From: a virus
DNA: 35,526 nt
Reading direction: 5' to 3' (one strand)
Virus record (IMG/VR): IMGVR_UViG_3300042406_000228
Span: 1-35,526 of that record
Shown here one piece after another: positions 2,707-35,001 of this stretch. The notes under the pieces were generated by a model. That model was not told the DNA's origin, made no database searches, and saw nothing but the letters and a program-made list of their open reading frames with translations. Numbering within the stretch: position 1 is the stretch's first letter; every line of letters begins with the position of its first letter. The position numbers and the translations under genes are program-made.

Positions 2707-3543
2707 ATGAGCATAGTATTTAATGCAGATGATCACAGCTACAAGAGTGTAGATCCCAATGATGAAATCAAGTGGGTTAGTGTGACTACTCTACTGTCTA
2801 GTCTTAAGAAACCTTTTGATGCTAAGAAGGTAGCTGAGAGAGTAAGTAAGAATAAGAAGTCTAAATGGTATGGCGTAGATCCTAAAACAATTATTCAGAT
2901 TTGGGATAATGAAGCTAACAGAGCTACAACACTAGGTACATTCTATCATAACCAAAGAGAATCTGATTTATGCTCACTTGCATCTATTGAAAGAGAAGGT
3001 GTAACTGTTCCTATTTTTAAACCCTATGAACAACCAAATGGTTTAAAGATTGCACCTATGCAAAAGCTTGATCCAGGCGTGTACCCAGAACATATGGTCT
3101 ATCTTAAGTCAGCAGGCTTATGTGGCCAATCAGATTTAGTTGAAGTAGTCAATGGTAGAGTAAATATCATTGACTACAAAACTAATAAGGAGATTAAAAC
3201 AGAATCATTCAAGAACTGGGAAGGAATGTCTGAAAAGATGTTACCACCAGTAGAACATTTGGATGATTGCAACTTTAATCACTATGCTTTACAGTTAAGT
3301 ATCTACATGTATATTATCTTAAAGCATAATCCTAAACTTCAACCAGGAAAAATATTTATTCATCACATTACATTTGAAACAGAAGGTGAAGATCAATATG
3401 GATATCCTATTGCTAAACTGGATGGAAATGGAGAACCAAAGGTATTAGAAGTAATACCAATGCCGGTACCTTATCTTTATGATGAGGTTATCTCAGTTAT
3501 CAATTACCTTAAGGAGAATCCTTATATTATTAAAAAGAAGTAA
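2707..3543 (+). CDS. PD-(D/E)XK nuclease (RecB/Cas4-like exonuclease fold)
   Basis: A 278-residue nuclease with the full PD-(D/E)XK set visible: Glu128 in YPEHMVY, Asp143 in CGQSDLVEV, Asp156 and Lys158 in IIDYKTNKEI, and the trailing QLSIY motif (196-200) seen in RecB/AddB/Cas4-type enzymes. The N-terminal part (SVTTLLSSLKKPFDAKKVA) is also typical of the phage members. No four-cysteine iron-sulphur cluster is seen, so it is not a classical Cas4. Nucleases of this type sit near the terminase in crAss-like and related phages and are thought to act in DNA end processing or recombination. Catalytic competence is likely; the substrate is not known. Confidence 0.85.
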   Translation: MSIVFNADDHSYKSVDPNDEIKWVSVTTLLSSLKKPFDAKKVAERVSKNKKSKWYGVDPKTIIQIWDNEANRATTLGTFYHNQRESDLCSLASIEREGVTVPIFKPYEQPNGLKIAPMQKLDPGVYPEHMVYLKSAGLCGQSDLVEVVNGRVNIIDYKTNKEIKTESFKNWEGMSEKMLPPVEHLDDCNFNHYALQLSIYMYIILKHNPKLQPGKIFIHHITFETEGEDQYGYPIAKLDGNGEPKVLEVIPMPVPYLYDEVISVINYLKENPYIIKKK

Positions 3544-3544
3544 T

Positions 3545-4060
3545 ATGATTGTAAGACTATTTGATGTTCAAAATGGTAAAGTAATTCCTACAGAACATTG
3601 CTATACATTAAAAGCACTTAAAGACATTATGGATAATTATCCAGATGATTATCTTAAAATATACCTCTACCTATTTTATATGACATGTCCTAATCCAGAC
3701 ATGAATCCTTTCTTTCATACTCCAGAGATAGATAAAGAACACATTATTCTAAAAGAAATACAAGCAGAGTTCTCAACAGAAGATGATGATATACATACTG
3801 CTTTATTATTTTGCCAAAGAATGTATGAAACACCAACATCTAGAGCATATAAAGGAATGGCATCTATGTTAGATAGATTAGCTAGATACATGGAAACAAC
3901 TACTATTACTGCTGGTAGAGATGGAAATATTAATTCACTAGTAGCTGCAGCCAAAAACTTTGATCAGATTAGAGCATCATTTAAAGGAGTATACAAAGAT
4001 CTTCAAGATGAACAATCAAGTAAAGTAAGAGGTGGACAAGGATTAGCTTATGACAGTTAA
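3545..4060 (+). CDS. Conserved pre-terminase protein (171 aa)
   Basis: Start chosen at ATG 3545 (MIVRLFDVQNGKVIPTEHCY): the in-frame ATG at 3479 would overlap the nuclease by 65 bases and add a spurious basic leader. The product is mostly helical, with a long C-terminal helical region containing DRLARYMETTTITAGRDGN and ending in a charged RGGQGLAYDS tail. It sits directly upstream of the large terminase (2 bases), the usual place of a small terminase. It has no recognisable helix-turn-helix. It resembles a conserved protein found just before TerL in Bacteroidota phages. TerS is a positional guess only. Confidence 0.62.
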   Translation: MIVRLFDVQNGKVIPTEHCYTLKALKDIMDNYPDDYLKIYLYLFYMTCPNPDMNPFFHTPEIDKEHIILKEIQAEFSTEDDDIHTALLFCQRMYETPTSRAYKGMASMLDRLARYMETTTITAGRDGNINSLVAAAKNFDQIRASFKGVYKDLQDEQSSKVRGGQGLAYDS

Positions 4061-4062
4061 TT

Positions 4063-6270
4063 ATGAGTGAGATTTATCAAGACATACCAACCTATGACAA
4101 TGGAACATGGACAACAACAAGCTTTGAATCCAGAGAGAACTTCAGCAACTTCATATTTGGAGTTTTCAAAGAACCCGGTAGTTACGGATTTAACAGTACA
4201 ACTAATCAGGTATTTATATCTGAGTCAAGAAAGTTTAGAGATACTGGAGTATATTGCACAGCCCCGTTCAAATCAAAAGACTTCATTGCCTATTGGGATG
4301 ATCAAAAAGCAAAATGCAGGAAGGGGATAATTGTAAAAGATGGTGATAACATATGGTTTCTTGCAAGGGAATACTATATGTGGTTAAACTTTTTGCCAAT
4401 CTTTGATAAGGAACAACAGAAGTTTGACTTTGCTAAAATTAGGGATGCACAGTATCATATGGCTCTATATGAGTTATTAGCTGAGTTAAACTATAAACAT
4501 GCTGCTATTCTAAAGAAACGTCAGATTGCATCTTCTTATTACCATATGGGTAAGTTTATAAATCAGCAGTGGTTTGAAGCTGGGGTCACACTTAAGATGG
4601 GAGCAAGTCTTAAAGATTATATCAATGAGAAAGGATCCTGGAAATTCTTACAGGAATATGCAGCATTCTTAAATGAGCATACCGCATGGTATAGACCTAT
4701 GTCTCCAGACAAGGTGATGATGTGGCAACAAAAGATTGAAGTAAGAAAAGGAGATAGAAAAACAGAAGTTGGTCTCAAAGGTACTATACAAGGTATGTCA
4801 TTTGAGAAAGATCCAACAAATGGTGTAGGGGGTCCAGTAAAATACTTCTTTCATGAGGAAGCAGGTATTGCACCTAAGATGGATCAGACATATGAGTACA
4901 TGCGCCCGGCCATGCGCTCAGGTATGGTAACTACAGGTATGTTTATTGCAGCAGGATCTGTGGGTGACTTGTCTCAGTGTAATCCTTTGAGAGATATGAT
5001 TCTTAATCCACTTTCTAAAGATATCTATGCAGTAGAAACTGATCTTATAGATAACAAAGGAACTGTAGGTTTGTCAGGTTTGTTTATTCCTGAACAATGG
5101 TCAATGCCACCATATATTGATGAGTTTGGTAATTCAAAAGTAGAAGAAGCTCTTATAGCTTTAGATGCTCAATTTGAGCAATGGAAAAAAGAACTTTCTC
5201 CGGAAGACTATCAATTAAGGATTTCTCAGCATCCAAGAAATATCCAAGAAGCCTTTGCACACAGATCTGTATCAATATTTCCAACTCACTTGGTTGCTGC
5301 TCAGAGCAGAAGAATTGAAGAGAAAGAATATGCTTATGAGTATTTAGATATTTATACTGATGAGACAGGAAAAGTTGCTGTAAAACCTACAGATAAACAA
5401 CCTATTAAAGAATTTCCAATAAGTAAAAAGACAGAAGATAAAACTGGTGTACTTGTTGTATGGGAAAGACCAATTAAAGATCCTACCTTTGGACAGTACT
5501 ATGCATCTATTGACCCCGTTTCTGAAGGTAAGACAACAACATCAGAATCTTTATGTTCTATCTATATCATGAAAGCTCCTGTAGAAGTTACTAAAGTAAC
5601 TGTAGGAGAAACAGAAACATACATAGAACCGGATAAAATTGTAGCTGCTTGGTGCGGTAGATTTGATGATATTAATAAAACTCACCAAAGGTTAGAACTA
5701 ATTATAGAATGGTATAATGCTTGGACAGTAATAGAGAATAACATTTCACTATTCATTCAGTATATGATATCAAGAAAAAAACAAAGATATCTAGTACCAA
5801 AAAGTCAGATATTATTTTTAAAAGACTTAGGTGCTAATGCTAATGTATTCCAGGAGTATGGTTGGAAAAATACCGGTACATTATTTAAGGCACACTTACT
5901 AAGTTATACTATTGAATACTGCAAAGAAGAATTAGATGTAGAAACTAAGACTGATGGTACTATTGTAAGAACTAAGTATGGTATAGAACGTATTCCAGAC
6001 CCAATGTTACTTAAAGAAATGCAAGAGTATGCTGATGGAGTCAACGTGGATAGACTTGTATCATTTGCAGCACTTGTGGCATTTATGAGAATCCAGCAAG
6101 CTAATAGAGGTTATTCTAAAAGAGTTATCATGGATGATGCTTCTAAAAACTTGCAAAAGTCAGATAATTTGTTTAAATTAAATAGAACCCCGTTCCGTCA
6201 TATGGGTGGATCAGGTAAAGTTATTAATGGTCAAGTTTTTAATAGGTCAGCCTTTAAGAACTTAAAATAA
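4063..6270 (+). CDS. terL: Terminase large subunit (DNA-packaging ATPase/nuclease)
   Basis: A 735-residue terminase motor that pumps DNA through the portal and cuts it. ATPase domain: a Walker A-like KKRQIASSY (151-159) that departs from GxxxxGK(S/T), Walker B-like YFFHEEA (261-267, Glu265/Glu266), and coupling motif IAAGSVGD (295-302). Nuclease domain (RNase H fold): Asp484 in ASIDP, Glu558 in VIENN and Asp663 in NVDRLVSF are the likely metal-binding acids. The deviant Walker A is common in phages of Bacteroidota. The C-terminal tail (HMGGSGKVINGQVFNRSAF) is basic and carries an MGG motif like many virion-associated proteins here. It is followed by the portal gene after 5 bases. Confidence 0.92.
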   Translation: MSEIYQDIPTYDNGTWTTTSFESRENFSNFIFGVFKEPGSYGFNSTTNQVFISESRKFRDTGVYCTAPFKSKDFIAYWDDQKAKCRKGIIVKDGDNIWFLAREYYMWLNFLPIFDKEQQKFDFAKIRDAQYHMALYELLAELNYKHAAILKKRQIASSYYHMGKFINQQWFEAGVTLKMGASLKDYINEKGSWKFLQEYAAFLNEHTAWYRPMSPDKVMMWQQKIEVRKGDRKTEVGLKGTIQGMSFEKDPTNGVGGPVKYFFHEEAGIAPKMDQTYEYMRPAMRSGMVTTGMFIAAGSVGDLSQCNPLRDMILNPLSKDIYAVETDLIDNKGTVGLSGLFIPEQWSMPPYIDEFGNSKVEEALIALDAQFEQWKKELSPEDYQLRISQHPRNIQEAFAHRSVSIFPTHLVAAQSRRIEEKEYAYEYLDIYTDETGKVAVKPTDKQPIKEFPISKKTEDKTGVLVVWERPIKDPTFGQYYASIDPVSEGKTTTSESLCSIYIMKAPVEVTKVTVGETETYIEPDKIVAAWCGRFDDINKTHQRLELIIEWYNAWTVIENNISLFIQYMISRKKQRYLVPKSQILFLKDLGANANVFQEYGWKNTGTLFKAHLLSYTIEYCKEELDVETKTDGTIVRTKYGIERIPDPMLLKEMQEYADGVNVDRLVSFAALVAFMRIQQANRGYSKRVIMDDASKNLQKSDNLFKLNRTPFRHMGGSGKVINGQVFNRSAFKNLK

Positions 6271-10412: not shown

Positions 10413-12029
10413 ATGGCAACTCCAGTAATGAACAATGGTATATTCCTTAGGGATACCGCTTACAACGCAAGTTCCCATGTGGATTCTTACCACTTGGTGA
10501 ACATGCTGAAAGATGCAGAGCCAATGGACCTTGGTCCAGTGGATCTTTGGGCTATGTCCCAAAAGGTTGAAATGCCTCTTTATCAAATGTCATCATTTGG
10601 TGGAAAAAATGTTATCATGGTTGATAACGCACGTGGGGAATACAGATGGCAAACTCCGGTTTCTATTGACCTTCCTTACATTGTTGAAGATGTTGAACCA
10701 GGCAATGACTTTAAAGGTGTTGATGGTACTACATTCCGTATCAAACTTAACAAAAGAGAATTTGGACATGGTGATATCATTACCTATGACAAATACAATG
10801 GAGTTGAGATGTACATCACTGCAGAAGATATTCTTCCATTAGGTGATGGTTTTATCTATACTGTTCAGTTGGTAAACAATGACAACTACAAATACATTGA
10901 TAACAAGTATTTGGCTAATGGTACAAAAGTATTCCGTAAAGGTTCTGCAAGAGGTGAGTATGGTGAAAGATTTTCTGACATCATTACTAATGCTGGTTTC
11001 CGTGAATTCTACAACTACGTAGGTGGTGCAGAAGCTCACGTACACTATTCTATTTCTAGCCGTGCTGACTTGATGATCAAAGGTGGAATGAATGCAGATG
11101 GTACAGTTCCTGTAACTGAGATCTGGAGATCATTTGACAAAACTATGGATCCATCAATCACTTCTTTGGAAGACATGGTTAAAGTAATGGGTAAAGATGC
11201 TGTTAAAAAAGCATTTGACAATGGCAACTTGTCACGTACATTCTTAACTAATATGGAAGCTGCTCACTTGAGCAAAATTGCAATTGACATTGAAACATAC
11301 CTCATGTGGGGTCATGGTGGTAGAGTACGTCAGGATGGTCCAGATGATGTTAGATTGTCTGTGGGTCTTTGGAAGCAGTTGGATAACTCATTCAAAAGAG
11401 TATACAACAAAAATAACTTCACACTTGACTTGTTCCGTTCTGAGATCTACAACTTCTTCAATGGTAAAGTTGAATTCCAAGGTCCAGATCCAAAACGTAG
11501 CCTAGTTGTACAAACTGGTATGGGTGGTATGCGTATGGTTAATGAGGCTATCAAACAAGAGGCTATCTCTTCTGGTCTTCTTATCCAGGCTGCTGATATC
11601 GGTGCAATCACTGGTAAAGGTATGGACTTGAACTTTGGTTTTGCTTACACTTCTTATGTTATCCCATTCTTGGCTAACGTTAAGTTTGTGTTGAACCCAG
11701 CATTTGATAACGTTCATACAAATGATATTGAGAACCCAATCATTGATGGTTTCCCATTATCTTCTTACTCATTCATTATCTTTGATATCACTGATAACAC
11801 TAATGACAACATCTTCTTGTTGAAATTGTCTTGGGATAATCAATTGAAGTGGTGGTATCAAAATGGTACTATGGACTACATGGGCCGTACACAAGGCTTC
11901 CAGTCTTCTGGTCAGTTCAATGGTTACCGTGTAATGATGAGCCAAACAATGCCAGCTATCTGGGTTAAAGACCCAACTAAAGTTTTGAAAATTGTTATGA
12001 GAAACCCTGTAACTGGTGGATCATTCTAA
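10413..12029 (+). CDS. Major capsid protein (HK97-fold, predicted)
   Basis: A 538-residue major coat protein. Evidence: position after scaffold, size, a strong terminator straight after it, and codon use unlike its neighbours (many CGT, AAC, TTC, TAC and GAC codons), as expected for the most abundant virion protein. The N-terminus (MATPVMNNGIFLRDTAYNAS) is short, without an obvious long scaffold-like delta domain. The middle (SISSRADLMIKGGMNADGTV, about 210-230) and the C-terminal beta-rich half (PAFDNVHTNDIENPIIDGFP, about 430-450) recall crAss-like coat proteins. HK97 fold is inferred from the phage group rather than from a motif. Confidence 0.87.
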   Translation: MATPVMNNGIFLRDTAYNASSHVDSYHLVNMLKDAEPMDLGPVDLWAMSQKVEMPLYQMSSFGGKNVIMVDNARGEYRWQTPVSIDLPYIVEDVEPGNDFKGVDGTTFRIKLNKREFGHGDIITYDKYNGVEMYITAEDILPLGDGFIYTVQLVNNDNYKYIDNKYLANGTKVFRKGSARGEYGERFSDIITNAGFREFYNYVGGAEAHVHYSISSRADLMIKGGMNADGTVPVTEIWRSFDKTMDPSITSLEDMVKVMGKDAVKKAFDNGNLSRTFLTNMEAAHLSKIAIDIETYLMWGHGGRVRQDGPDDVRLSVGLWKQLDNSFKRVYNKNNFTLDLFRSEIYNFFNGKVEFQGPDPKRSLVVQTGMGGMRMVNEAIKQEAISSGLLIQAADIGAITGKGMDLNFGFAYTSYVIPFLANVKFVLNPAFDNVHTNDIENPIIDGFPLSSYSFIIFDITDNTNDNIFLLKLSWDNQLKWWYQNGTMDYMGRTQGFQSSGQFNGYRVMMSQTMPAIWVKDPTKVLKIVMRNPVTGGSF

Positions 12030-23338: not shown

Positions 23339-23920
23339 ATGAAAGATTTTAAAACCCCAGATCTTAAAGCTCCACGCTTTAGACCAAAGGTTCATAATAT
23401 AGCAAACAAAAAGTTCTTTGATAGTTTTAGAAAGAAGTATCCAAAGTATAAAGACTTAAAGGATTCAGAGCTTAGAAAAATAATTAAATATTTTAATAAG
23501 CAGGCATATCATCTTGCGGTAGAAAACAGAGATGGTATACAACTACCTGAGTCAGTAGGTTGGATATTTATTGGGACATGCCAAACAAGTGTAAAGAAAA
23601 ATATTGATTTTGCTAAGTCAACAAAGTATGGAGTGACAGTAACAAATAAAAATTGGGAAACAGATGGTAAACTAGCTAAAATATTTTATACAAATTATGC
23701 TATTAAGCATAAGATGAAAAATAAAGAGTATTGGGGATTTACAGCTTGTAGAGATTTTAAAAGATTAGTATCTAAAACTTATCCTGAAAACTGGCCAATG
23801 TATATAGTAGTTGACCCCCATCAAAAAATAAAACTAGACTATCAAAAAACTTATTATAAAGACCTGTTACAAAAAAGAGAACAGGAGGCATTAAAAAATT
23901 ATAATGACTTTGATCTATGA
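23339..23920 (+). CDS. Conserved tail-region protein (193 aa)
   Basis: Basic 193-residue protein with N-terminal LKAPRFRPKVHNIANKKFFD (9-28), a helical KDLKDSELRKIIKYFNKQAY region (37-56) and central segments ESVGWIFIGTC (71-81) and NKNWETDGKLAKIFYTNYAI (98-117). It strongly recalls a conserved family found before the ring-protein genes in crAss-like and other Bacteroidota phages, whose function I cannot name. It has no catalytic signature that I can see. Its stop overlaps the next start (ATGA), implying coupled translation with the first ring protein. Virion or assembly role inferred from its unit. Confidence 0.68.
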   Translation: MKDFKTPDLKAPRFRPKVHNIANKKFFDSFRKKYPKYKDLKDSELRKIIKYFNKQAYHLAVENRDGIQLPESVGWIFIGTCQTSVKKNIDFAKSTKYGVTVTNKNWETDGKLAKIFYTNYAIKHKMKNKEYWGFTACRDFKRLVSKTYPENWPMYIVVDPHQKIKLDYQKTYYKDLLQKREQEALKNYNDFDL

Positions 23921-24579
23921 GTACAATTGGTGAATCAATATCTAGAGTTAGGAATGCTCTTAAAGCTGTTAAAGAAGATGCCTTCTTAACAGATAGGACC
24001 ATCTTTTTTGCTATAACTAAATATGCTCAAACTCTTCTCAAGAGAGAAGATAATCAGTTTAAACTGATGAAGATGAGTTCTATATTTCAAGTGTTACCTT
24101 ATCTTGAACTTATAGATGTTGATAAAGTTCAAGCAGGATGTATTGGTGTACATTCAGGTTGTTATTTTAAAAGAACAAAAGATAAAGTACCAAGTATTTT
24201 AAATGGATCATTTGGACCAATTATACGTACAGTATCTTCAATTGATGGAACTTTAGAACTATATAGAACGGAGCCAGGTATTTGGCTTTCTATGACTAAG
24301 ACAACAACTTTTAAATATAATAAAAATTTGTACTTCTGGTACTTAGATGACTATTTGTACTTTCCTAATTTAGATTGGGAAGCTATAAGAATGGAAGCAA
24401 TTTTTGATGGATATGTGGAGTCTTGTTCAAGTGATCCATGTGAACTAAAACAAAATATGCCTTTAAATATTCCTGCATATTTATTTTCTGAAGTAGAACA
24501 ATATACTGTCAAGGAACTAGCAATGAGTTTACAAATACCGCCTGATCAAGTTGATGATGGTCAAAATATTCTTAGATAA
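23917..24579 (+). CDS. Neck/tail ring protein (crAss-like)
   Basis: A 220-residue protein resembling a conserved ring/tail-tube-type protein of crAss-like phages: ESISRVRNALKAVKEDAFLT (6-25), KYAQTLLKRED (35-45), LELIDVDKVQ (63-72), KRTKDKVPS (85-93), GPIIRTVSSIDGT (100-112) and LYFWYLDDYLYFPNLDWEAI (138-157). Helical N-terminus, beta-rich middle. It would form part of the connector under the portal. It overlaps both neighbours (ATGA upstream, TAATG downstream), so it is co-translated with the second ring protein. Family resemblance is strong; the exact place in the neck is not determined. Confidence 0.76.
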   Translation: MSTIGESISRVRNALKAVKEDAFLTDRTIFFAITKYAQTLLKREDNQFKLMKMSSIFQVLPYLELIDVDKVQAGCIGVHSGCYFKRTKDKVPSILNGSFGPIIRTVSSIDGTLELYRTEPGIWLSMTKTTTFKYNKNLYFWYLDDYLYFPNLDWEAIRMEAIFDGYVESCSSDPCELKQNMPLNIPAYLFSEVEQYTVKELAMSLQIPPDQVDDGQNILR

Positions 24580-25637
24580 TGGATTTTAACTACACATTAA
24601 GATATAGAACCTTTGATGAATTATTACATGATGTAATGATTGATTTCAGTACTTTCTCTTTAGAGAATATGATTGAACCTCAGCAGTTAATTAAACTTGT
24701 AAAGAAGATTAACTATGATCTTGGTTTAAGAATTAATCAAACAAGAGAAGTAATTTTAGATGTATCACATGGTAATGTAAAACTGCCAGATGATTTTTAT
24801 ACATTCAATTTTGCATCAATTTGTGGACATTTTACAGAGCACATTGGTTATGATGGTTATGTTGGTGGTACAAATATTCAAGAAGTACCTTATGTTGAAA
24901 CACCAGCTACAGTAGATGTATGTGCACCTATTACTATAAACTGCTCTGTATGCAACGCAAATCCATGTAATCATACTGCAGCATGTCCAGACAATACATG
25001 TCCTGCTACATGTATTCCTGATCCTATTCCTACAGAATATAATCCTTTAGCTCCTTATGGAGATGTTTGCACAAGACCAAGAGTTTTTATGAACTGTAAA
25101 GGAGATAAGTATGAACTTATTCAAGTTATTAGCAATCCTGGTGTAACAAGAGTATATACACAATTGCTTCCATTAAGAATGAGAGCAAGTGAAAATATAG
25201 ATTGTGAATGTCCAAACTTATATTGGAATGTTCCAAATGAAGGTTGGATAAAAGGAGGATTCTTATTTACTACATTTGACACAGGTAAAGTATATTTAAA
25301 CTACCAGGGTCAAATGGAAGATGAGAATGGTAACTTATTAGTTCCAGATCATGATCTTCTTAATGAATATTATGAGTATGCACTTAAGTCTAGAATACTT
25401 GAGAACTTATATATGAATGGAGAAGATGTTGCACAAAGAATACAGTTAATAGAACAAAGACTAAGATCTGCAAGAAATGCTGCATTAAGTCTTGTTAATA
25501 CACCAAACTTTAGAGAAATGGCTCAAATGTGGTGGATAAATAGAAAAGCTATGTATAGTAAGTACTATGATATGTTTAAGTCATATGATATACTTAAAGG
25601 ATATAATAGAGTACCTGGGTCCAATACAATAAGATAA
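24579..25637 (+). CDS. Neck/tail ring protein 2 (crAss-like)
   Basis: A 352-residue protein with an N-terminal helical domain typical of the crAss-like ring proteins: RYRTFDELLHDVMIDFSTFS (8-27), QLIKLVKKINYDLGLRINQT (36-55), and VKLPDDFYTFNFA (67-79). The middle has an inserted Cys-rich loop (about 112-146: CAPITINCSVCNANPCNHTA and a further CPDNTCPATC) that looks like an addition to the basic fold. The beta-rich centre and helical C-terminus (EYALKSRILENLYMNG) follow. The Cys-rich insert resembles the style of the appendage genes and might be a contact for them. Shares TAATG junctions with both neighbours. Confidence 0.75.
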   Translation: MDFNYTLRYRTFDELLHDVMIDFSTFSLENMIEPQQLIKLVKKINYDLGLRINQTREVILDVSHGNVKLPDDFYTFNFASICGHFTEHIGYDGYVGGTNIQEVPYVETPATVDVCAPITINCSVCNANPCNHTAACPDNTCPATCIPDPIPTEYNPLAPYGDVCTRPRVFMNCKGDKYELIQVISNPGVTRVYTQLLPLRMRASENIDCECPNLYWNVPNEGWIKGGFLFTTFDTGKVYLNYQGQMEDENGNLLVPDHDLLNEYYEYALKSRILENLYMNGEDVAQRIQLIEQRLRSARNAALSLVNTPNFREMAQMWWINRKAMYSKYYDMFKSYDILKGYNRVPGSNTIR

Positions 25638-28600
25638 TGGCAAAGAATATCCAGAATACATCTCAAAATGTTACTAACACATTTATAAAAGGTCTTAATA
25701 AAGACTCTGATCCTTCATTTGTACAAGAAGGAATGTGGACACATGCACGTAACGCTTCTAATAATACTATAGAAGGTAACTTAGGCACATTATCTAATGA
25801 AGCCTCTAACTTTTTATGCATTACAACTGGTGCTACAATGCCTGCATTTGGTACTAATCCTGTTGTAACTAAATATATTGTTGGAGCAATACAGTTATTT
25901 TCAGATAAATGGATTATATATACAGCAGGTCATGATGCTAATGGAGTATCAATCATGTCAGAAATTGGTTTGTTAGAAGAAGAAAGATGCATCTATAGAC
26001 CTATTGTTCAAGATGAATGTCTTGGTTTTGATAAAAGATTTTTAATATCTGGTTCTGCAAGGGAAAAAGAAGATTGTTCTTGGCAAGTATATTGGGCAGA
26101 TGGATTAAATCCTGATAGAATATTAAATGTTGGAGATCCACAAACTTGGCCAGATAGTTCATTTCAATGGGAAGCTAATACACTAATTAATCCCAATCAA
26201 TCATCTTATAATAGTGTTATTAACTATTATGTAGATTCTAATGGTGATAGAATACTATGGCCAGGTGTAGCATGGATTCAGGATTGTGATCCATCTCCTG
26301 CTTGTACAATTTGTGTTGATACTAATGAATTAGATTGTAATGCAATTAGATTAGCAAGATTAGTAAAAACTCCATGCTTAAATGTAAAACTTGGTGAAGC
26401 TGGTGGTAACCTTAGAAATGGTACATACTTTGCTACTCTTGCATATGCAATAAAAGGTCAAAGAGTTACTGATTATTATTCTCCAAGTAATACTCAACCT
26501 ATTTATTTTTCAGATGATCTTCAAGGTGCATTAACTATTGATGTAGAAGCTGATACAGAAAACTTTGATGAGTTTATTTTAGTTGTAGTACAAAATATTA
26601 ATCAAGGCACTCTTGCTAAAGAGATTGGAATATATTCTACTAAGACTAATTCAATTGAGTTAGATCAAATTAAAGATGAGCTAATAACTGTACCATTAGA
26701 GATTATTCCAATTTCTAATCCGGTATATGAAACATCTGATCAAATTACTGATGCAAATAATTACTTATTAAGAGTTGGTCCAAGATCTAAATTTGATTTT
26801 AACTATCAACCTTTAGCTAACTTAATTAAAACCAAATGGGTATCTGTTGAGTATCCTGCAAATTATTATGTTAAAGGAGGTCATAAAGGAAGTTATCTTA
26901 GAGATGAAGTCTATGCTTTCTTTATTAGATGGGTCTATGATACCGGAGACAAATCCGCCTCTTATCATATTCCTGGAAGATATCCTAAAAATTACACATA
27001 TATAAGAAGTGGATCTAATGTTCAGATAACTCAAAATGAAAAAGAAGAAGCTGTACCAAATGGTTTTGAAGATTTTAATACCTTAAGCACTACTGATCAG
27101 TTATTTGAAATGTATAATACTGCTAATCTTAGTGGTAACCCTGCAATATTAAATACTATTCTACCTGATGGTGGGAAAGTTGTAGCTAGTGGGGAAATGG
27201 GATACTGGGAATCTACTGAAGTATATCCAGATAATCAACCTGATATTTGGAATTCTAGTACACATTGTTGGACTGGGTTTGAAGGAGCTACTCAAAGATA
27301 TGATTTATGTGGACTTAACATTAGACATCACAAGTTTCCAGATAATTACTTAAGTCCTAAGACTCTTCACTATGAACCTGCTGCTGGACAAAATGACCCA
27401 AATCTTTTAAATATTAGATTAATGGGAGTAATGTTTGAAAACATTCCTTTTCCAAAAGATAATGAAGGTAATGATATTCCAAACATTGTAGGTTATGAAA
27501 TATTAAGAGGTTCTAGAGAAGGTAACCGTAGCATTATTGCTAAAGGTATGATCAATAACTTTAGAACTTATGAAATTAAAGGAGATGTTGCTAGAGATAG
27601 ATTAGGTTTATATGCTAACTATCCATTCAATACTATTAAGTCACCAATGAATACAGGATCAGGAACTGATCATAATATTGGTTTTAATGATCCTTACATA
27701 AAGACATCTCCTTATCAACAAACTGTTCCTAAAGAAATTATTAGTTTCCATTCTCCAGATACTATGTTTAGAACTCCTTTCTTGGAGTCAACAGAACTTA
27801 AGTTGTATGGAGCTATTTCTGGTTGGTCAGATCAAAATTTTCAACAACCAAGTCAACATCCTAAGTTTAAATTGCTTAGTGATCTAACAATGGTATTTGC
27901 TTTTGTTGCTGGTGTAGCTGAAGGTTTAATTTCAATGCTTGGTAAAAAAACAATTACTCAACCAGGAGCAAGTTTTACATCTCAAGCAATTCCAAATGTA
28001 TCTGGAATTATGACAAGTGGTAGTGGTAATATTACAACAACTCCACAATGGGCTCCTACATCAACTCTTCAAGCAGAACTTATTTCTGGTAATCCAAATT
28101 TAAATACACCACCTACTTCTTATTTTGGAAAATTAAATTCTTACTTTAATCTAGGTCAAATTTTTACAAACACAACACAAGTAACAAATACGGTTGAAGA
28201 AATATTTAATGATTTTAATTATCAAATGGGTTTTATTAATGGAGGTACATTTACGGCACCTTCTATTAATACTGATTTATCTGCAGCTGTATTTTTAGGT
28301 GGTGCTGCAGGACAAGCTGTACTTTCTGGTTTAGGTATTGCAAATAAATTCCTTTACTATTTTGCTGAAGGTACTGATGTAGCTTTGCAAGCAATTTATG
28401 CTTTTATTAAATATGATCAGTATGCATTGCAAATGATATCTCATGGTCTTTATGATTCATTTATATCTCCTGCAAGTTTACAAACATCAATTGTAAATGG
28501 ATCTCCAGTTCTTGATGCATACATTACAAGATTTAAAATTGGAGATGCATTTTATATCAGAGATAATATACAAGAAGTACAAACATTTGGCCCCCCTGCA

Positions 28601-31180
28601 TCTCAAAAAAGATATAGCATTAATAACTTAAAAAGATCTGATACAGTAGTATTAAGAACTAAAACTGGTCCTTATGCTGTACCAGGGTTTACTGATGGTG
28701 TAGATGATGGACCAAAGTATATTGTTACTCCTGGAGGAACTTACTATGACCAGTCATTAGTTACCTTATCTTATTATGATAATAACTCTTCAGGACAAGG
28801 TAATCAATGGGGTAATGCAGTACAACCTAATTTTAAAAATAGCATTGATACTCCATTCTCATTACCTATTGCAAGTCATTATGGTGCAATTAAAATTAGA
28901 AAAAGAAATCAATACGGCCAGTTACAATCTATAAAACAAATTGCAATTACACCATGTGAACAAAAACTATCTGATCCTTATTATTCTTCACATATTTATA
29001 CTGAAAATTATGTGTGTCCAACAGGAGATACATACAAGATTAAGAAGATAACATATACGCCAGTATTTTTTGGTGGTGATACTTTTGTAAATAGATATAC
29101 AGAAAAGAATACAATGTTCTTTTTCTATGATTGGTTATATAGTCAACCTGATGGATTTGAGTTTAACTATTTGCTAAGACAAATGATACCAGAACCAAGA
29201 TTCTGGGTTAACTCAAATGAGTATGACTTTGCTGAGTTTACAGATATTTTTCAAACTATTTTTAATCAAGGGACTCTTCCTCCAGGAACAGGTTGGAAAC
29301 CAAGTAATTTCTATAACATGGATTGTAAAAACTATGATTATAGAGATGATCAAATTGGAAACTATCCTGGATTATTTAGACCAAAAGATTGCTACTTCTA
29401 TATCACAGCTTCTGCAGTTAGAGATTTCTTTGTTGAAAGTGAAGTACTTGTAGACTTTAGAATTCAAGGTATTACAGATGCTGAGAAGCATTATGATCCA
29501 TATAGATACACTGATCTTGAATCAATGTTTAATACAGATCCTCAGATTATAACTAGAGGTAATGAGTATAGATATGATTACTCACTTAGTATTACTAAAG
29601 CCTTTAGTCAATATTTTTCTGCCGGTAATTTACAAAGCAGATATTATAATCCACTTGTTGCACAACTTTGCTACACTTATTACCCAGATAGAATTATCTA
29701 TTCATTACCACAACAACAAGAATCTTTTAAAGATAGTTGGTCTATATACTTAGTAAATAACTATAAAGAGTTTACATCTCAGATTAGTGGTATTAAAACA
29801 GTTAATAAGAATGGTATCATAATTACATTTAAGAATGATAGTCCAATAATGTATCAGGGTGTAGATACTTTGCAAACTGATTTAGGTACAAAAATTACTA
29901 TCGGAGATGGTGGATTATTTAGTCAACCAGAACAATCAGTAGTTAATGCAGATAGATCTTATGAATATGGATCATCTCAAAATAGATTATCTGTACTTTC
30001 ATCACCTGCAGGTATTTATTATATCTCACAAAATCAAGCTAAGGTATTTGCATTTGGTCAAGGATTAAAAGAGATTTCCCAGATTGGACTTAAATGGTGG
30101 TTTACTAATTTCTTACCGTACAAGTTAACAGAAGATTTTCCAGAGTATCCATATCAAGATAATCCAGTTTCTGGTATTGGTTGTCAATCATTATATGATA
30201 ATGAGAATACTATTATTTATTTTAGTAAAAAAGACTACAAACTTAAACCAGAATGGATAGGGCAAGTAATATATGTCCCATTGATTACTTTTGGTAAAAG
30301 AAAAGGTTTCGGAGATTATTTTCAGATTGTAAATTCTGATGGTACTATTCAACCAGCACAATATCAACTAGGTGATCCTATATTATTTGAAGATGCTTCT
30401 TGGACATTAAGTTTTGATCCTAAGAATGAATTATGGATTTCATTTCATGACTGGCATCCTGATCTTTCAATTCCAACTAAAAATACTTTCCTTACAACTA
30501 AAGGAAATACTATTTGGAAACATAATGCATTATGTAATAGTTTTTGTAATTACTATGGAATACAATATCCATTTGAAGTAGAACTACCAATTACAACAGG
30601 CCAGACAATTACTACAATGAAGTCTGTTGAATATATACTTGAATGTTATAGAAGAAAATCATTTAATTGTGTAGATCAGTTCCATGTACTTGATTATAAC
30701 TTTGATAAAGCAGTAGTATATAACTCAGAACAAGTATCTGGATTCTTAAATCTTAATATATTTCCAAAGAATAATGTTACTTTAAGTCAAGAGTATCCTA
30801 AGTTAAATCAATCTAATTTATCTTCATTTGATATTTTATTTAGTAAAGAAGAAAATAAGTATAGATTTAATCAGTTCTGGGATATTACAAAAGACCGTGG
30901 TGAATTCCCTAATGGATCAGACTATCCACCAACAGGACCCGTTGTGCCTGGAACAACAGTATTACAAGGTAACTATGATGAAAACATTATTTGGAATACT
31001 GCATCTAATGGTTATATAAGACAATTAAATTCTACCAACCTAGATTACAATAAACCTCAGTTACAAAGAAAGAAATTTAGACACTATTTAAATTACTTAA
31101 CTTTGATTAGAGAGAATAGTTCAGATACTAACATGATATTGAAACTTGTAAATACTAAAAATCAAATATCTCTTAGATAA
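25637..31180 (+). CDS. Giant tail stabilisation / muzzle-type protein (1847 aa)
   Basis: The N-terminus NTFIKGLNKDSDPSFVQEGM (14-33) followed by WTHARNASNNTIEGNLG (34-50) is the signature of the large tail (stabilisation or 'muzzle') proteins of crAss-like and related phages, analogous to P22 gp10-type tail proteins. The rest is beta-rich with many Tyr, Asn, Gly and Pro and several aromatic repeats, as in beta-propeller or tail-tip proteins. A hydrophobic, Gly/Ala/Ser-rich segment at about 745-950 (MVFAFVAGVAEGLISMLGKK; SAAVFLGGAAGQAVLSGLGI) could be a membrane-interacting or buried region. It is expected at the tail tip, contacting the host and gating DNA exit. It shares TAATG with the gene before and TAATGA with the one after. 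Confidence 0.8.
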   Translation: MAKNIQNTSQNVTNTFIKGLNKDSDPSFVQEGMWTHARNASNNTIEGNLGTLSNEASNFLCITTGATMPAFGTNPVVTKYIVGAIQLFSDKWIIYTAGHDANGVSIMSEIGLLEEERCIYRPIVQDECLGFDKRFLISGSAREKEDCSWQVYWADGLNPDRILNVGDPQTWPDSSFQWEANTLINPNQSSYNSVINYYVDSNGDRILWPGVAWIQDCDPSPACTICVDTNELDCNAIRLARLVKTPCLNVKLGEAGGNLRNGTYFATLAYAIKGQRVTDYYSPSNTQPIYFSDDLQGALTIDVEADTENFDEFILVVVQNINQGTLAKEIGIYSTKTNSIELDQIKDELITVPLEIIPISNPVYETSDQITDANNYLLRVGPRSKFDFNYQPLANLIKTKWVSVEYPANYYVKGGHKGSYLRDEVYAFFIRWVYDTGDKSASYHIPGRYPKNYTYIRSGSNVQITQNEKEEAVPNGFEDFNTLSTTDQLFEMYNTANLSGNPAILNTILPDGGKVVASGEMGYWESTEVYPDNQPDIWNSSTHCWTGFEGATQRYDLCGLNIRHHKFPDNYLSPKTLHYEPAAGQNDPNLLNIRLMGVMFENIPFPKDNEGNDIPNIVGYEILRGSREGNRSIIAKGMINNFRTYEIKGDVARDRLGLYANYPFNTIKSPMNTGSGTDHNIGFNDPYIKTSPYQQTVPKEIISFHSPDTMFRTPFLESTELKLYGAISGWSDQNFQQPSQHPKFKLLSDLTMVFAFVAGVAEGLISMLGKKTITQPGASFTSQAIPNVSGIMTSGSGNITTTPQWAPTSTLQAELISGNPNLNTPPTSYFGKLNSYFNLGQIFTNTTQVTNTVEEIFNDFNYQMGFINGGTFTAPSINTDLSAAVFLGGAAGQAVLSGLGIANKFLYYFAEGTDVALQAIYAFIKYDQYALQMISHGLYDSFISPASLQTSIVNGSPVLDAYITRFKIGDAFYIRDNIQEVQTFGPPASQKRYSINNLKRSDTVVLRTKTGPYAVPGFTDGVDDGPKYIVTPGGTYYDQSLVTLSYYDNNSSGQGNQWGNAVQPNFKNSIDTPFSLPIASHYGAIKIRKRNQYGQLQSIKQIAITPCEQKLSDPYYSSHIYTENYVCPTGDTYKIKKITYTPVFFGGDTFVNRYTEKNTMFFFYDWLYSQPDGFEFNYLLRQMIPEPRFWVNSNEYDFAEFTDIFQTIFNQGTLPPGTGWKPSNFYNMDCKNYDYRDDQIGNYPGLFRPKDCYFYITASAVRDFFVESEVLVDFRIQGITDAEKHYDPYRYTDLESMFNTDPQIITRGNEYRYDYSLSITKAFSQYFSAGNLQSRYYNPLVAQLCYTYYPDRIIYSLPQQQESFKDSWSIYLVNNYKEFTSQISGIKTVNKNGIIITFKNDSPIMYQGVDTLQTDLGTKITIGDGGLFSQPEQSVVNADRSYEYGSSQNRLSVLSSPAGIYYISQNQAKVFAFGQGLKEISQIGLKWWFTNFLPYKLTEDFPEYPYQDNPVSGIGCQSLYDNENTIIYFSKKDYKLKPEWIGQVIYVPLITFGKRKGFGDYFQIVNSDGTIQPAQYQLGDPILFEDASWTLSFDPKNELWISFHDWHPDLSIPTKNTFLTTKGNTIWKHNALCNSFCNYYGIQYPFEVELPITTGQTITTMKSVEYILECYRRKSFNCVDQFHVLDYNFDKAVVYNSEQVSGFLNLNIFPKNNVTLSQEYPKLNQSNLSSFDILFSKEENKYRFNQFWDITKDRGEFPNGSDYPPTGPVVPGTTVLQGNYDENIIWNTASNGYIRQLNSTNLDYNKPQLQRKKFRHYLNYLTLIRENSSDTNMILKLVNTKNQISLR

Positions 31181-34100
31181 TGAGAAAGTTAAAAGTAGAT
31201 AAGTCTAAAATTGCTGGTAAAGGTTTATTTACCACAGATGTTTTTGAGCAAGGTGAAATGATTGGATTGGCACATGAAAATGACCAACCCACTACTTTTA
31301 TTGGTAAGTACCATAATCACTCTGATGAACCGAATGCTGAAAGTGTAAAGCTTGGGGATAAAAGATATCTTATGGCTAAAAGACCGCTTAAGAAGGGAGA
31401 AGAGATTACTACTAATTATAGACTTCAACCTGAGCTTGAACAACCTGAGGATTTTGCAAAAGGGGGACTTGTAAGAATGCCAAAACCTAGTAAGAAGGGT
31501 CTAGCATCTAAAAAGTTTTCTAGAAGCTTAGAAGCAACAAATAGATTTTTTACACAGAATCCATTATTTGAAAAACCCAAATCTAGAAAAAGAAAAGTAT
31601 TTGATCCAAATGCTAAGTATTATGAAGATGGAGGTGAGTTACCTATGGCAGAATATGGTATGCCTATGGGTGCTGGTATGTCTCAAAACTATCAAGGTAG
31701 AAAAAGATTTATTCATCAAGATGGTGGTATAATTTCACAAGAAGACATAGATGCTGCTAACAATGCAATGATGAAAGCAAGATTAGCTTATGCAAATATG
31801 CATGGTAATCCTGCGGCTCAAAGAATGGTTGTTGCACCAGACCAACCATATGATTTTGGTGACGATGTCACAGGTACTCATTATATGGCATCTATGGATA
31901 ACTATGCTGTACCTCAGATACAAGATATCAATGGTCAACTCATGTTAGGAGATTATGGTCCTGACTCTGCAGAAGCTATAAGATTTGATAATCCTGAAGA
32001 TGCAATGTACTTTGCAGAACATTACAAAGAAATTACTCCTGATGCATCTTATAGACAAGAAGAGTATGCAGTAGGCGGTGTAGCATTTCCTATGGATCTT
32101 GATCCAAAGACAATGAAAAAATATAAAGAAGCTCTTAAGCTTCAAGAAAATTCAATTAAGTCTGGATATAAGAAATCAGAAGATAAATGGTATCCACATA
32201 AAAGTCCTGAAGGTGGAGCTGATACTATTGGATATGGTCATAAACTTTTAGGAGCAGATGCTAGTAAATATTATAAAGGAATAAGTTCAGCAGATGCTGA
32301 TAAATTACTTGAGTCAGATATATTAAAACATCAATCTATTGCTGAAAAAATAGTAGACCAGAAATATGGTAAAGGTACCTTTGATGGTTTACCACAAGAT
32401 TCTCAAATGCTCCTTGTAGATTATGCTTATAATGGTGTATTAAACAAGTTTCCAACATTTATGGGGGCTGTTGTTCAAGGTGATAAAAATACTATGCTTA
32501 AAGAATATGAAAGATCTGGAGCTGGTGGTTTATTAAAAGAAAGAAATGCCTGGACAAAAGATACTATTCTTGAAGGAGATTTTAATACTCCATCTAGTTT
32601 ACCTGGAAAAGGTCCTCAACAAGTATCATTAAATAGCAATAGAGATAAATGGGGTAGAAGTCCAAATACAATATGGTATGGATTTAATCCTGATACAAAA
32701 CAATATGAACAAGAAGGTTTAGATTGGGAACAGTATGGTGATCCTGGACCAGGTATTGAAGGGCCCGGAGCAGGTGCTTATGTAACTCCTGGTGAAAGAT
32801 TAGAAACATATCGAAAAAATAATCTTAAAAAACAACAAGAGGGTGGAGATATTATTTCTCAACAAGGATGGGATTATATAAAAGAAGGTGACAAATACTT
32901 AACAAGAAAAACTGGTACTCAAGATTGGATAGAAGCCCAAGGCAGACCACTACAAGCTATTAAACAAAGCATATATCAAGAGGCGCCAGTTGTAACATCA
33001 GTTGTATCTGAATCTACTACACCAACAACTCAACCTGTAATAGGAGATCCAAAAGTTTTAGAAATACAGAAAAAACTAAAAGATGCTGGATATGATCTTG
33101 GAAAATATGGTCCTAATAAAGATGGTATTGATGGTATAATGGGTAATACAACTAAGTTGGCTTATGATGCTTACAAAGCAAATATCCCACCTAATGAAGT
33201 TAAAGTACCTAAGAAAACTACTAAACCTACAATTAACTATACAGTTAATAGAGATCTTCCAGATGGATATCTTCCCGTAATACAGCCAGGTCAAGAAGCA
33301 TGTGTAGAAGGTAAGGGTTGCTCATTTAATGTTAGTGTTAAAATGGGTGACTTATTAGGAAATATTGCTGATGGACCATTATGGGCAAATGATGCTTGGT
33401 TTAATAAATCTGATATACTAAATAAGGGCGGTGATTTAATTTATGATAGTAATTCTAAAATCTATAATGAAATGGGTAAGGTTCCAAAAGAAGTTTACTC
33501 AAAACTGCAAGTCGGAGATTATGTACAATTAAATAGAACAGATACTGCATCAAGTGGTAAGTTTGCTGCTCAAACAAAAGAAGGACTTCAGAATGAACAG
33601 ATTGAACACTTAGGCTTTGTTGTAGGTAAAGACAAAGATGGTACTCCATTAATTTGGCATGGTTCAGAAACTGGTAAAGCATTTATTAAAAGAATAGATG
33701 AGCCAATTACTTTAGATGATCATGATAAAAATATCTTTACATACAAAGTATCTTCAATTGTAAGATCTCCTAATCTTAAAGATGTAGACTTTTCTGGTCT
33801 ACAAAATTCTCCATACTATACTCCTGTTGATCCTAACAAAAAGTTAGTTCCTAAAAAAGGAGCTACTGAAACACAAGTAGAAGCAACTAAATCATTTAAC
33901 AATGCTGTAGGACAATTTAAAAACCTAGGTTATTCCCAAGATGATACTAACTATGTTGGTCAACTTCTTATTGGTGGTATCATGCAAAATGAAACTAAAG
34001 GTAATACAGATTGGAAAACTGTTCCTAAAGAAGCAGCTGCAACGGTTTGGAAAAACTATTTAGGTCAAGGTAATTTTGAAGGTGATGAAGCCAGTATTGG

Positions 34101-35001
34101 TGTTTATCAAATGAAACCTAACTATAATTTTAAAAACCAAGATGGTGGTTTAAATCCTTTAGGTAAAAAGTTACAAAAACTTGGAGTTAATGTAGATGAC
34201 ATTACAAATGATAATATACAAGCACAAACTATAGCTGGTACACTTATATTACTTGATAATTATAAAAAGTTAAAAGAAGATCCAGACTTTGATCCTAAAA
34301 CTAATTTATATAAAGAAAAAATTCCTGCATCTTATATCTTAGCTAAATCATGGCAAGCAGGGGCTGGTTGGGAATCAAGAGAAAAATACAAGAAATTTTT
34401 AAATGATCTTGATATTGACTATAGTGATAATGCATTACAGTCTGCTGTGTGGAATATTGATGTTACAGATGGTAAATCTGTTAATTCAGAATTGACACAA
34501 ATAAAAACTAATCAAGATATTATAAATGAAAAAAAGCAACAAGAGGCCGCTAAAAAACAAATGGCTATTAAACAACAAGAACTTGCTGTAAGAGCAGACA
34601 CTGTAAGAAAGTTTCCTACTATTGCTGAGTCTACTGCTGTAAATACAAATTATACACAGAGAGGTCCTAAACCTTTTGATGTTGCTTCATATACACAACA
34701 GGGCCCTACTAAAACTATTTATACATATTCTGGAAGACCTGGAGCAATGTATAAGAAAGATAGTAGAGGAAACTGGTATATTAATCTTGGAACTAAAACA
34801 GGAAATCAATTTGTTAAAATACAAGATCCAGATGGTAGTAGAACGGCCTTATTGAATAAAGGAGCTGTACCATCAGTACCAAAAGGAAATCTTCCCTCTG
34901 TACCAAGAACATTTAAAAATGGTGGTATATACATGGAACTTTCAGATTCTGAAATTGAAGAGTTTAGAAGAGGTGGTTATATCATTGAGGATCTGGATTA
35001 A
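31180..35001 (+). CDS. SET domain + GH24 lysozyme + PG-binding + NlpC-like + SLT-like fusion (1273 aa)
   Basis: Domains in order: minimal SET lysine methyltransferase-like domain (1-82) with GKGLFTT (13-19), NHSDEPN (46-52) and GEEITTNY (73-80), the expected cofactor and catalytic motifs; an x-GG-rich linker (95, 151, 182, 299); a GH24 lysozyme-like domain (about 312-460; Glu323 candidate, DTIGYGHKL at 348-356); a peptidoglycan-binding domain (about 624-666); an NlpC/CHAP-like cysteine peptidase region (about 690-865; Cys714, His810, His827 as candidates); a lytic-transglycosylase-like domain (about 905-1085; Glu938 in QNETKG, SIGVYQMKP); and a C-terminal x-GG tail (FKNGGIYMEL, FRRGGYIIEDLD). 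Probably a virion-borne wall-degrading enzyme used in entry. The GH24 aspartate is not obvious, so that domain may be altered. Confidence 0.8.
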   Translation: MRKLKVDKSKIAGKGLFTTDVFEQGEMIGLAHENDQPTTFIGKYHNHSDEPNAESVKLGDKRYLMAKRPLKKGEEITTNYRLQPELEQPEDFAKGGLVRMPKPSKKGLASKKFSRSLEATNRFFTQNPLFEKPKSRKRKVFDPNAKYYEDGGELPMAEYGMPMGAGMSQNYQGRKRFIHQDGGIISQEDIDAANNAMMKARLAYANMHGNPAAQRMVVAPDQPYDFGDDVTGTHYMASMDNYAVPQIQDINGQLMLGDYGPDSAEAIRFDNPEDAMYFAEHYKEITPDASYRQEEYAVGGVAFPMDLDPKTMKKYKEALKLQENSIKSGYKKSEDKWYPHKSPEGGADTIGYGHKLLGADASKYYKGISSADADKLLESDILKHQSIAEKIVDQKYGKGTFDGLPQDSQMLLVDYAYNGVLNKFPTFMGAVVQGDKNTMLKEYERSGAGGLLKERNAWTKDTILEGDFNTPSSLPGKGPQQVSLNSNRDKWGRSPNTIWYGFNPDTKQYEQEGLDWEQYGDPGPGIEGPGAGAYVTPGERLETYRKNNLKKQQEGGDIISQQGWDYIKEGDKYLTRKTGTQDWIEAQGRPLQAIKQSIYQEAPVVTSVVSESTTPTTQPVIGDPKVLEIQKKLKDAGYDLGKYGPNKDGIDGIMGNTTKLAYDAYKANIPPNEVKVPKKTTKPTINYTVNRDLPDGYLPVIQPGQEACVEGKGCSFNVSVKMGDLLGNIADGPLWANDAWFNKSDILNKGGDLIYDSNSKIYNEMGKVPKEVYSKLQVGDYVQLNRTDTASSGKFAAQTKEGLQNEQIEHLGFVVGKDKDGTPLIWHGSETGKAFIKRIDEPITLDDHDKNIFTYKVSSIVRSPNLKDVDFSGLQNSPYYTPVDPNKKLVPKKGATETQVEATKSFNNAVGQFKNLGYSQDDTNYVGQLLIGGIMQNETKGNTDWKTVPKEAAATVWKNYLGQGNFEGDEASIGVYQMKPNYNFKNQDGGLNPLGKKLQKLGVNVDDITNDNIQAQTIAGTLILLDNYKKLKEDPDFDPKTNLYKEKIPASYILAKSWQAGAGWESREKYKKFLNDLDIDYSDNALQSAVWNIDVTDGKSVNSELTQIKTNQDIINEKKQQEAAKKQMAIKQQELAVRADTVRKFPTIAESTAVNTNYTQRGPKPFDVASYTQQGPTKTIYTYSGRPGAMYKKDSRGNWYINLGTKTGNQFVKIQDPDGSRTALLNKGAVPSVPKGNLPSVPRTFKNGGIYMELSDSEIEEFRRGGYIIEDLD

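Follow-up and report, generated by a model that had tools for sequence, protein, structure and literature searches.

Why would a phage join a SET domain, of a type that methylates lysines in proteins, to enzymes that degrade the cell wall? The question is raised by one gene in the window, that is, the whole stretch of viral DNA analysed here (35,526 nucleotides). A sequence-only reading had described its product as a 1273-residue fusion of a minimal SET domain with a triple peptidoglycan hydrolase. It offered three options for the SET part: methylation of a virion protein during assembly, modification of a host protein during entry, or a docking function.

The SET domain and its fusion partners

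The gene (31180..35001, + strand) lies directly behind the muzzle gene, whose stop codon overlaps its ATG (TAATG). It is a single intact open reading frame of 1273 codons without internal stops, starting at an ATG. The same continuous SET-plus-hydrolase frame is found in four independent IMG/VR contigs (L001, L002, L003 and L004) at 80–95% identity. A frame error, with the SET part as a separate gene, is therefore excluded, and the description as one protein holds.

The compact SET domain covers residues 1–84 (31180..31431, +), with the GKG and NH motifs and the catalytic Tyr80. It matches Pfam PF00856 with an E-value of 1.8e-7 (32 bits; the cutoff is 22.4), and a SET profile run against PDB chains reaches 5e-11 for MLL and 3e-10 for vSET. 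The AlphaFold2 model of the domain has a mean pLDDT of 86. In Foldseek, its top PDB match is vSET (3kma; E 2e-6, probability 1.0), among 180 PDB matches at E<1e-3. The Pfam match, the vSET fold match and the PDB profile search rule out a chance motif, and the fold proposed for residues 1–82 is confirmed together with its named motifs. Across 22 aligned sequences, S9, G13, G15, H32, G42, N46, H47, E75 and Y80 are invariant; none of the 22 phage SETs, stand-alone copies included, departs from GxG, NH or the catalytic Tyr. The SET module is under strong purifying selection, with a dN/dS of 0.07 (muzzle 0.11, module C 0.046). The domain is apparently intact, and these features suggest that it is an active methyltransferase.

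The domain is short, at about 82 residues versus 119 in vSET, which leaves little room for a substrate-recognition insert. It is followed by the post-SET motif LQPELEQPEDFAKGG at residues 82–96 (31423..31467, +). The pattern LExPxDF is kept behind most SETs of this protein family, and a similar LQPDLEQP follows the SET in phage proteins that combine it with a DHH domain.

These results bear on the plainest alternative, namely that the protein is simply a cell-wall hydrolase of the tail, to which a SET fragment of no importance has become attached by chance or recent capture. Relatives do often have lysozyme-type genes close to the muzzle. However, purifying selection (0.07) maintains the SET domain, which reappears in this gene slot across many lineages, including crAss-like phages with only 35–42% muzzle identity. 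This alternative is already contradicted by the conservation and is very improbable. Recent capture from a host gene was likewise rejected, as the search for SET relatives found no close cellular SET; cellular matches covering most of the domain were only about 26–35% identical (Woesearchaeota, candidate phyla and a few Bacteroidota). The wider search for SET relatives used six closer alignment rows.

The hydrolase parts differ in how clearly they can be recognized. The GH24-type phage lysozyme domain occupies residues 299–463 (32074..32568, +) and shows the catalytic Glu and the motifs QENS, WYPH and TIGYGH, the usual Asp of YxD reading as His in WYPH. Its Pfam match (PF00959, residues 345–441) scores 22.4 bits, just above the cutoff of 22.3. 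A putative peptidoglycan-binding domain lies at residues 624–672 (33049..33195, +); PG_binding_1 (PF01471) scores 15.7 bits there at 624–660, under the cutoff of 23, and matches three members of the relatives' set at up to 3.6e-7. From their motifs, we read a putative papain-like NlpC/CHAP-type domain at about residues 696–880 (33265..33819, +) and a putative lytic transglycosylase-like domain at about residues 896–1130 (33865..34569, +; GGIMQNET and SIGVYQMKP, the latter of the G.YQMxP type). No Pfam match of those names was obtained for either. The AlphaFold2 model of residues 594–1140 is poor (pLDDT 58), and the Foldseek matches to papain-like/PlyPy/CHAP structures and to MltE are weak, none having an E below 0.07. 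A SET domain fused to one or more cell-wall hydrolases thus stands. The "triple hydrolase" becomes one supported domain, the lysozyme, at the Pfam cutoff, plus two plausible ones, the matches for the peptidoglycan-binding, CHAP-like and transglycosylase-like parts being weak.

Four further elements complete the layout. Anchor module B (residues 94–153; 31459..31638, +; ..KKFSRSLEATN.LF..PLF.KPKSRKRK.FDPNA..GG) is the hallmark of the family. Module C, of unknown function, spans residues 182–298 (31723..32073, +). The short module N (GG-DIISQQGWDYIKEGDKYLTRK...) lies at residues 556–600 (32845..32979, +) and occurs in two copies in relative L011. The C-terminal motif T (GGIYMELSDSEIEEFRRGGYIIEDLD; 34912..34998, +) often has internal copies too in relatives. 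The anchor, module C, the C-terminal repeat motif and the muzzle-adjacent context were all missing from the original domain list.

A modular protein family behind the muzzle gene

The window is a crAss-like phage. It contains terminase and portal genes, the crAss major capsid protein (10413..12029, +; PF23898, PHROG 11589), tail ring proteins 2 (23917..24579, +; PF25702) and 1 (24579..25637, +; PF24228), and the muzzle protein, the tail-tip gatekeeper (25637..31180, +; PF25731, E 4.4e-31). Among annotated phages, the top muzzle matches come from Cellulophaga phages phi17:2 and phi4:1 (about 27% identity). In phi17:2, the gene that follows the muzzle gene encodes a tail lysozyme (E 9e-32). In the phi4:1 record, the muzzle gene and the next four genes are annotated "experimental MS/MS proteomics"; one of these, gp040, contains module A of the present family (E 1.5e-12). 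In crAss001, the genes behind the muzzle encode cargo proteins that mass spectrometry detected in virions (PMC10172136).

To survey this slot, we took 80 loci of the 394 relatives found by a muzzle-based search, mapped modules by profiles in 72 post-muzzle proteins and searched 67 of these with Pfam. Phages near the window are over-represented in this sample, and the frequencies below are not order-wide. The stop and start codons overlap in nearly all loci, and the first gene behind the muzzle encodes 363 to 2191 residues among the complete ones kept. Anchor B is present in 61/72 proteins, module A in 54/72 and motif T in 62/72, while lysozyme occurs in 24/72, module C in 23/72 and SET in 17/72; one further locus has a SET in the second post-muzzle gene. 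Pfam also identified ART-PolyVal (6.6e-13), PARP, DUF3990, GNAT, SLT, amidases and YkuD; the GNAT, ADP-ribosyltransferase-like, amidase, SLT and YkuD domains are each found in single or few proteins. In L123, the SET is accompanied by DUF6782. The zincin-like motif HExxH is present in 21 of the 72 proteins, some of them with SET. It occurs 24 times versus 0.73 expected (33-fold over chance) and 0 times in the muzzle control; the window protein itself has no HExxH metallopeptidase motif.

Several observations concern how these modules are joined. GG follows module B in 61/61 proteins, and GG totals 730 versus 530 expected. We considered GG linkers as protease sites and rejected the idea, since the next genes are enriched in GG as well and the pattern amounts to no more than a linker rule. 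The L007 protein (L007:7755-13025) carries SET, HAD-like (FDYDDTLT), zinc-ribbon-like, GNAT and peptidoglycan-binding modules, bounded by GG and repeated copies of motif T. That motif (ELTxxEIxxYRxGGYIVEE) has at least two copies in 35/72 proteins and also ends some following genes; it is possibly a packaging tag or a gene-fusion scar. At L013:16354-16986, the reading frame of a GIY-YIG-like homing endonuclease opens with MATYLQ, copied from the start of the late gene that comes next. Between phages whose muzzles are only about 55–72% identical, module C reaches identities of up to about 90% and, judged by these values, seems to spread horizontally among the cargo proteins.

The SET module also moves. 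It starts at residue 1, about 48, about 82, about 480 or about 576, in most cases immediately ahead of anchor B. On the muzzle tree (70 phages; a fast tree with some long branches), it switches between present and absent at least seven times. The window SET shares 62% identity with its counterpart in L007, whose muzzle is distant, and only 43% with that of L052, which is nearer on the muzzle tree. This suggests exchange of SET between lineages. More distant crAss-like phages (35–42% muzzle identity) have a SET in the same slot, in L143 together with LysM and SLT. Lysozyme is present in 3/17 SET proteins versus 21/55 without SET (p 0.15), so that the fusion of SET with lysozyme, whose frequency in related phages had been left to be counted, occurs in three of the 72 post-muzzle proteins. 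Lysozyme is not enriched with SET, and their coupling is therefore module shuffling; the functional coupling of SET and hydrolase in the sequence-only reading is unsupported.

Outside crAss-like phages, the same SET is found stand-alone or fused to DHH phosphoesterase, nucleotidyltransferase or cupin-like domains. L128-L152 (e.g., L151:4396-6642) form a family of about 690–750 residues that combines a DHH phosphoesterase-like domain with SET and the LQPDLEQP tail. Some of these proteins, and some neighbouring open reading frames, have MKIIITESQ-like peptides at their start, similar to capsid-targeting sequences; only in L151 and its close relatives is the sequence suggestive of a T4-type capsid targeting peptide. 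In L118:1870-3207 (also in L119 and L120), a 446-residue protein has a nucleotidyltransferase-like N-terminus and a C-terminal SET. In L025 (Phage zth2-2; 3419-4294), SET follows a cupin-like domain. This gene has the terminase gene on one side and, on the other, a GNAT-like gene close to the portal, so that here too a SET is encoded among virion genes.

Where the SET domain may act

The SET fold belongs to the beta-clip folds, which include structural proteins, and it could serve as a non-catalytic docking or structural module that replaces the N-terminal module A. SET and module A are indeed nearly exclusive: module A occurs in 4/17 SET proteins versus 50/55 others (Fisher p 2e-7, relatedness uncorrected). 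SET thus usually stands in place of module A, and a structural role is conceivable. However, four proteins contain both, SET is also internal in some (residues about 480 and 576), and in other phages it is joined to the other partners described above. Moreover, the invariance of GxG, NH and the catalytic Tyr in all 22 aligned phage SETs makes a docking domain less likely, and we consider this option improbable.

If the domain is catalytic, its cofactor restricts where it can work. S-adenosylmethionine is cytoplasmic and peptidoglycan is periplasmic; therefore, the SET and the hydrolases cannot act in the same place. Because SET needs S-adenosylmethionine, it works only in a cytoplasm, which can be that of the producing cell or that of the next host after ejection.

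While virions are assembled in the producing cell, SET would methylate the capsid, the muzzle or the cargo protein itself, and it would then be packaged as a passenger. S-adenosylmethionine is available there, the gene sits in a late structural operon, and virion proteins of Cellulophaga phages have been seen methylated (PMC13288928). However, the phages of that study are not known to encode a methyltransferase, and host enzymes suffice. That some close relatives have SET and others lack it speaks against a step required for assembly. The lysine-rich anchor beside SET would be an obvious substrate in cis, but its lysines are equally conserved in relatives that lack SET. There is thus no sign of a cis substrate, and self-methylation of the anchor was rejected. 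We regard action in the producing cell as unlikely, although it is the best placed of the alternatives.

The reading that we favor, with a probability of roughly 0.6, is that the gene encodes a modular cargo protein of the polyvalent type, which is ejected with the DNA and whose SET domain methylates a host protein. The protein would be synthesized late and loaded into the virion behind the muzzle, to enter the next host by ejection, either before the DNA or together with it. The lysozyme, and perhaps the CHAP-like and transglycosylase-like modules, may help to breach the peptidoglycan on the way in. Once inside the new host cell, SET would methylate lysines of a host protein, in the service of takeover or counter-defence. 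The presumed late expression, the cargo slot, the patchy presence of SET and its GNAT/ART companions point to such an injected protein-modifying effector. Points against it are the lack of homology to crAss001 gp45–gp47, the very short SET and the absence of an HExxH motif that could free the SET. Still, modification of a host protein during entry fits best of the three original options, given the cargo slot, the invariant catalytic residues and the GNAT, ART and zincin sisters. A broader and more tentative proposal, which we hold at somewhat less than even odds, is that the crAss-like post-muzzle slot is a swappable, virion-delivered effector cassette, many of whose members would use SET to methylate host proteins in the first minutes of infection. 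The proteins ejected by this dominant phage group might then form a modular set of effectors and not just components of a channel and a polymerase.

A 2026 study of infected Cellulophaga reports that the share of methylated peptides about doubles and that host methylation is raised early (PMC13288928). This makes the idea of an injected SET timely but concerns other phages. Phage protein methylation is nearly unexplored, and the SET in the crAss-like cargo slot is a concrete candidate enzyme.

Comparison with known systems

The nearest counterparts by position are gp45 (C1) and gp46 (C2) of crAss001, which, like the window protein, are large and directly behind the muzzle; a SET or hydrolase was not found in their description in the excerpts of that study (PMC10172136). 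They have no sequence similarity to the modules of the window protein, and a comparison of gp45–gp47 with profiles of ten modules gave no significant match. They represent a different family in the same slot.

By architecture, the closest precedent is the polyvalent proteins, in which unrelated enzyme domains occur in one phage polypeptide with proposed DNA co-injection (Iyer et al. 2017; PMC5512222). The window family has in common with them the lysozyme, ART, GNAT and zincin-like domains, the shuffling of architectures and a gene location beside virion genes. At least two disparate activities are combined in one protein: SET and lysozyme in the window, SET, GNAT and peptidoglycan binding in L007, and SET, LysM and SLT in L143. 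Shuffling is evident from the 72 mapped architectures and the changes of SET on the muzzle tree, and linkage to virion and late genes from the ring, muzzle, capsid and portal genes in the window. A zincin-like processing peptidase, a common but not defining polyvalent theme, is absent from the window protein. SET and lysine methylation, however, go unmentioned in PMC5512222. The window family also differs in its location, the crAss post-muzzle slot, and in having a distinct anchor, GG linkers and C-terminal motif.

The best structural match, PBCV-1 vSET (A612L), is a viral histone H3K27 methyltransferase, also a minimal SET with a catalytic Tyr and an NHS motif. However, vSET is a stand-alone 119-residue protein of a eukaryotic virus that acts on histones, whereas the window SET has about 82 residues, is fused to wall enzymes and belongs to a phage of a bacterial host. 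Small SETs of marine podoviruses, cyanophages P-SSM7 and P-RSM6, Pseudoalteromonas phage PH1 and zth2-2 are similarly compact. Those of the podoviruses are separate short genes that share the invariant residues with the window SET. None of these small SETs was seen with wall hydrolases, that of zth2-2 being joined to the cupin-like domain. In the open-access literature, our searches turned up no previous description of a SET-hydrolase fusion in a phage or of a SET delivered by virions.

Phage enzymes that modify host proteins, as proposed for this SET, are known from T4 Alt, an ADP-ribosyltransferase that is packaged and injected (PMC9026906), and from the Pseudomonas phage acetyltransferase Rac (PMC7824862). 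They belong to different enzyme families and catalyze ADP-ribosylation and acetylation rather than methylation. If our reading is correct, a phage-injected SET would add protein methylation to these two as an injected takeover chemistry.
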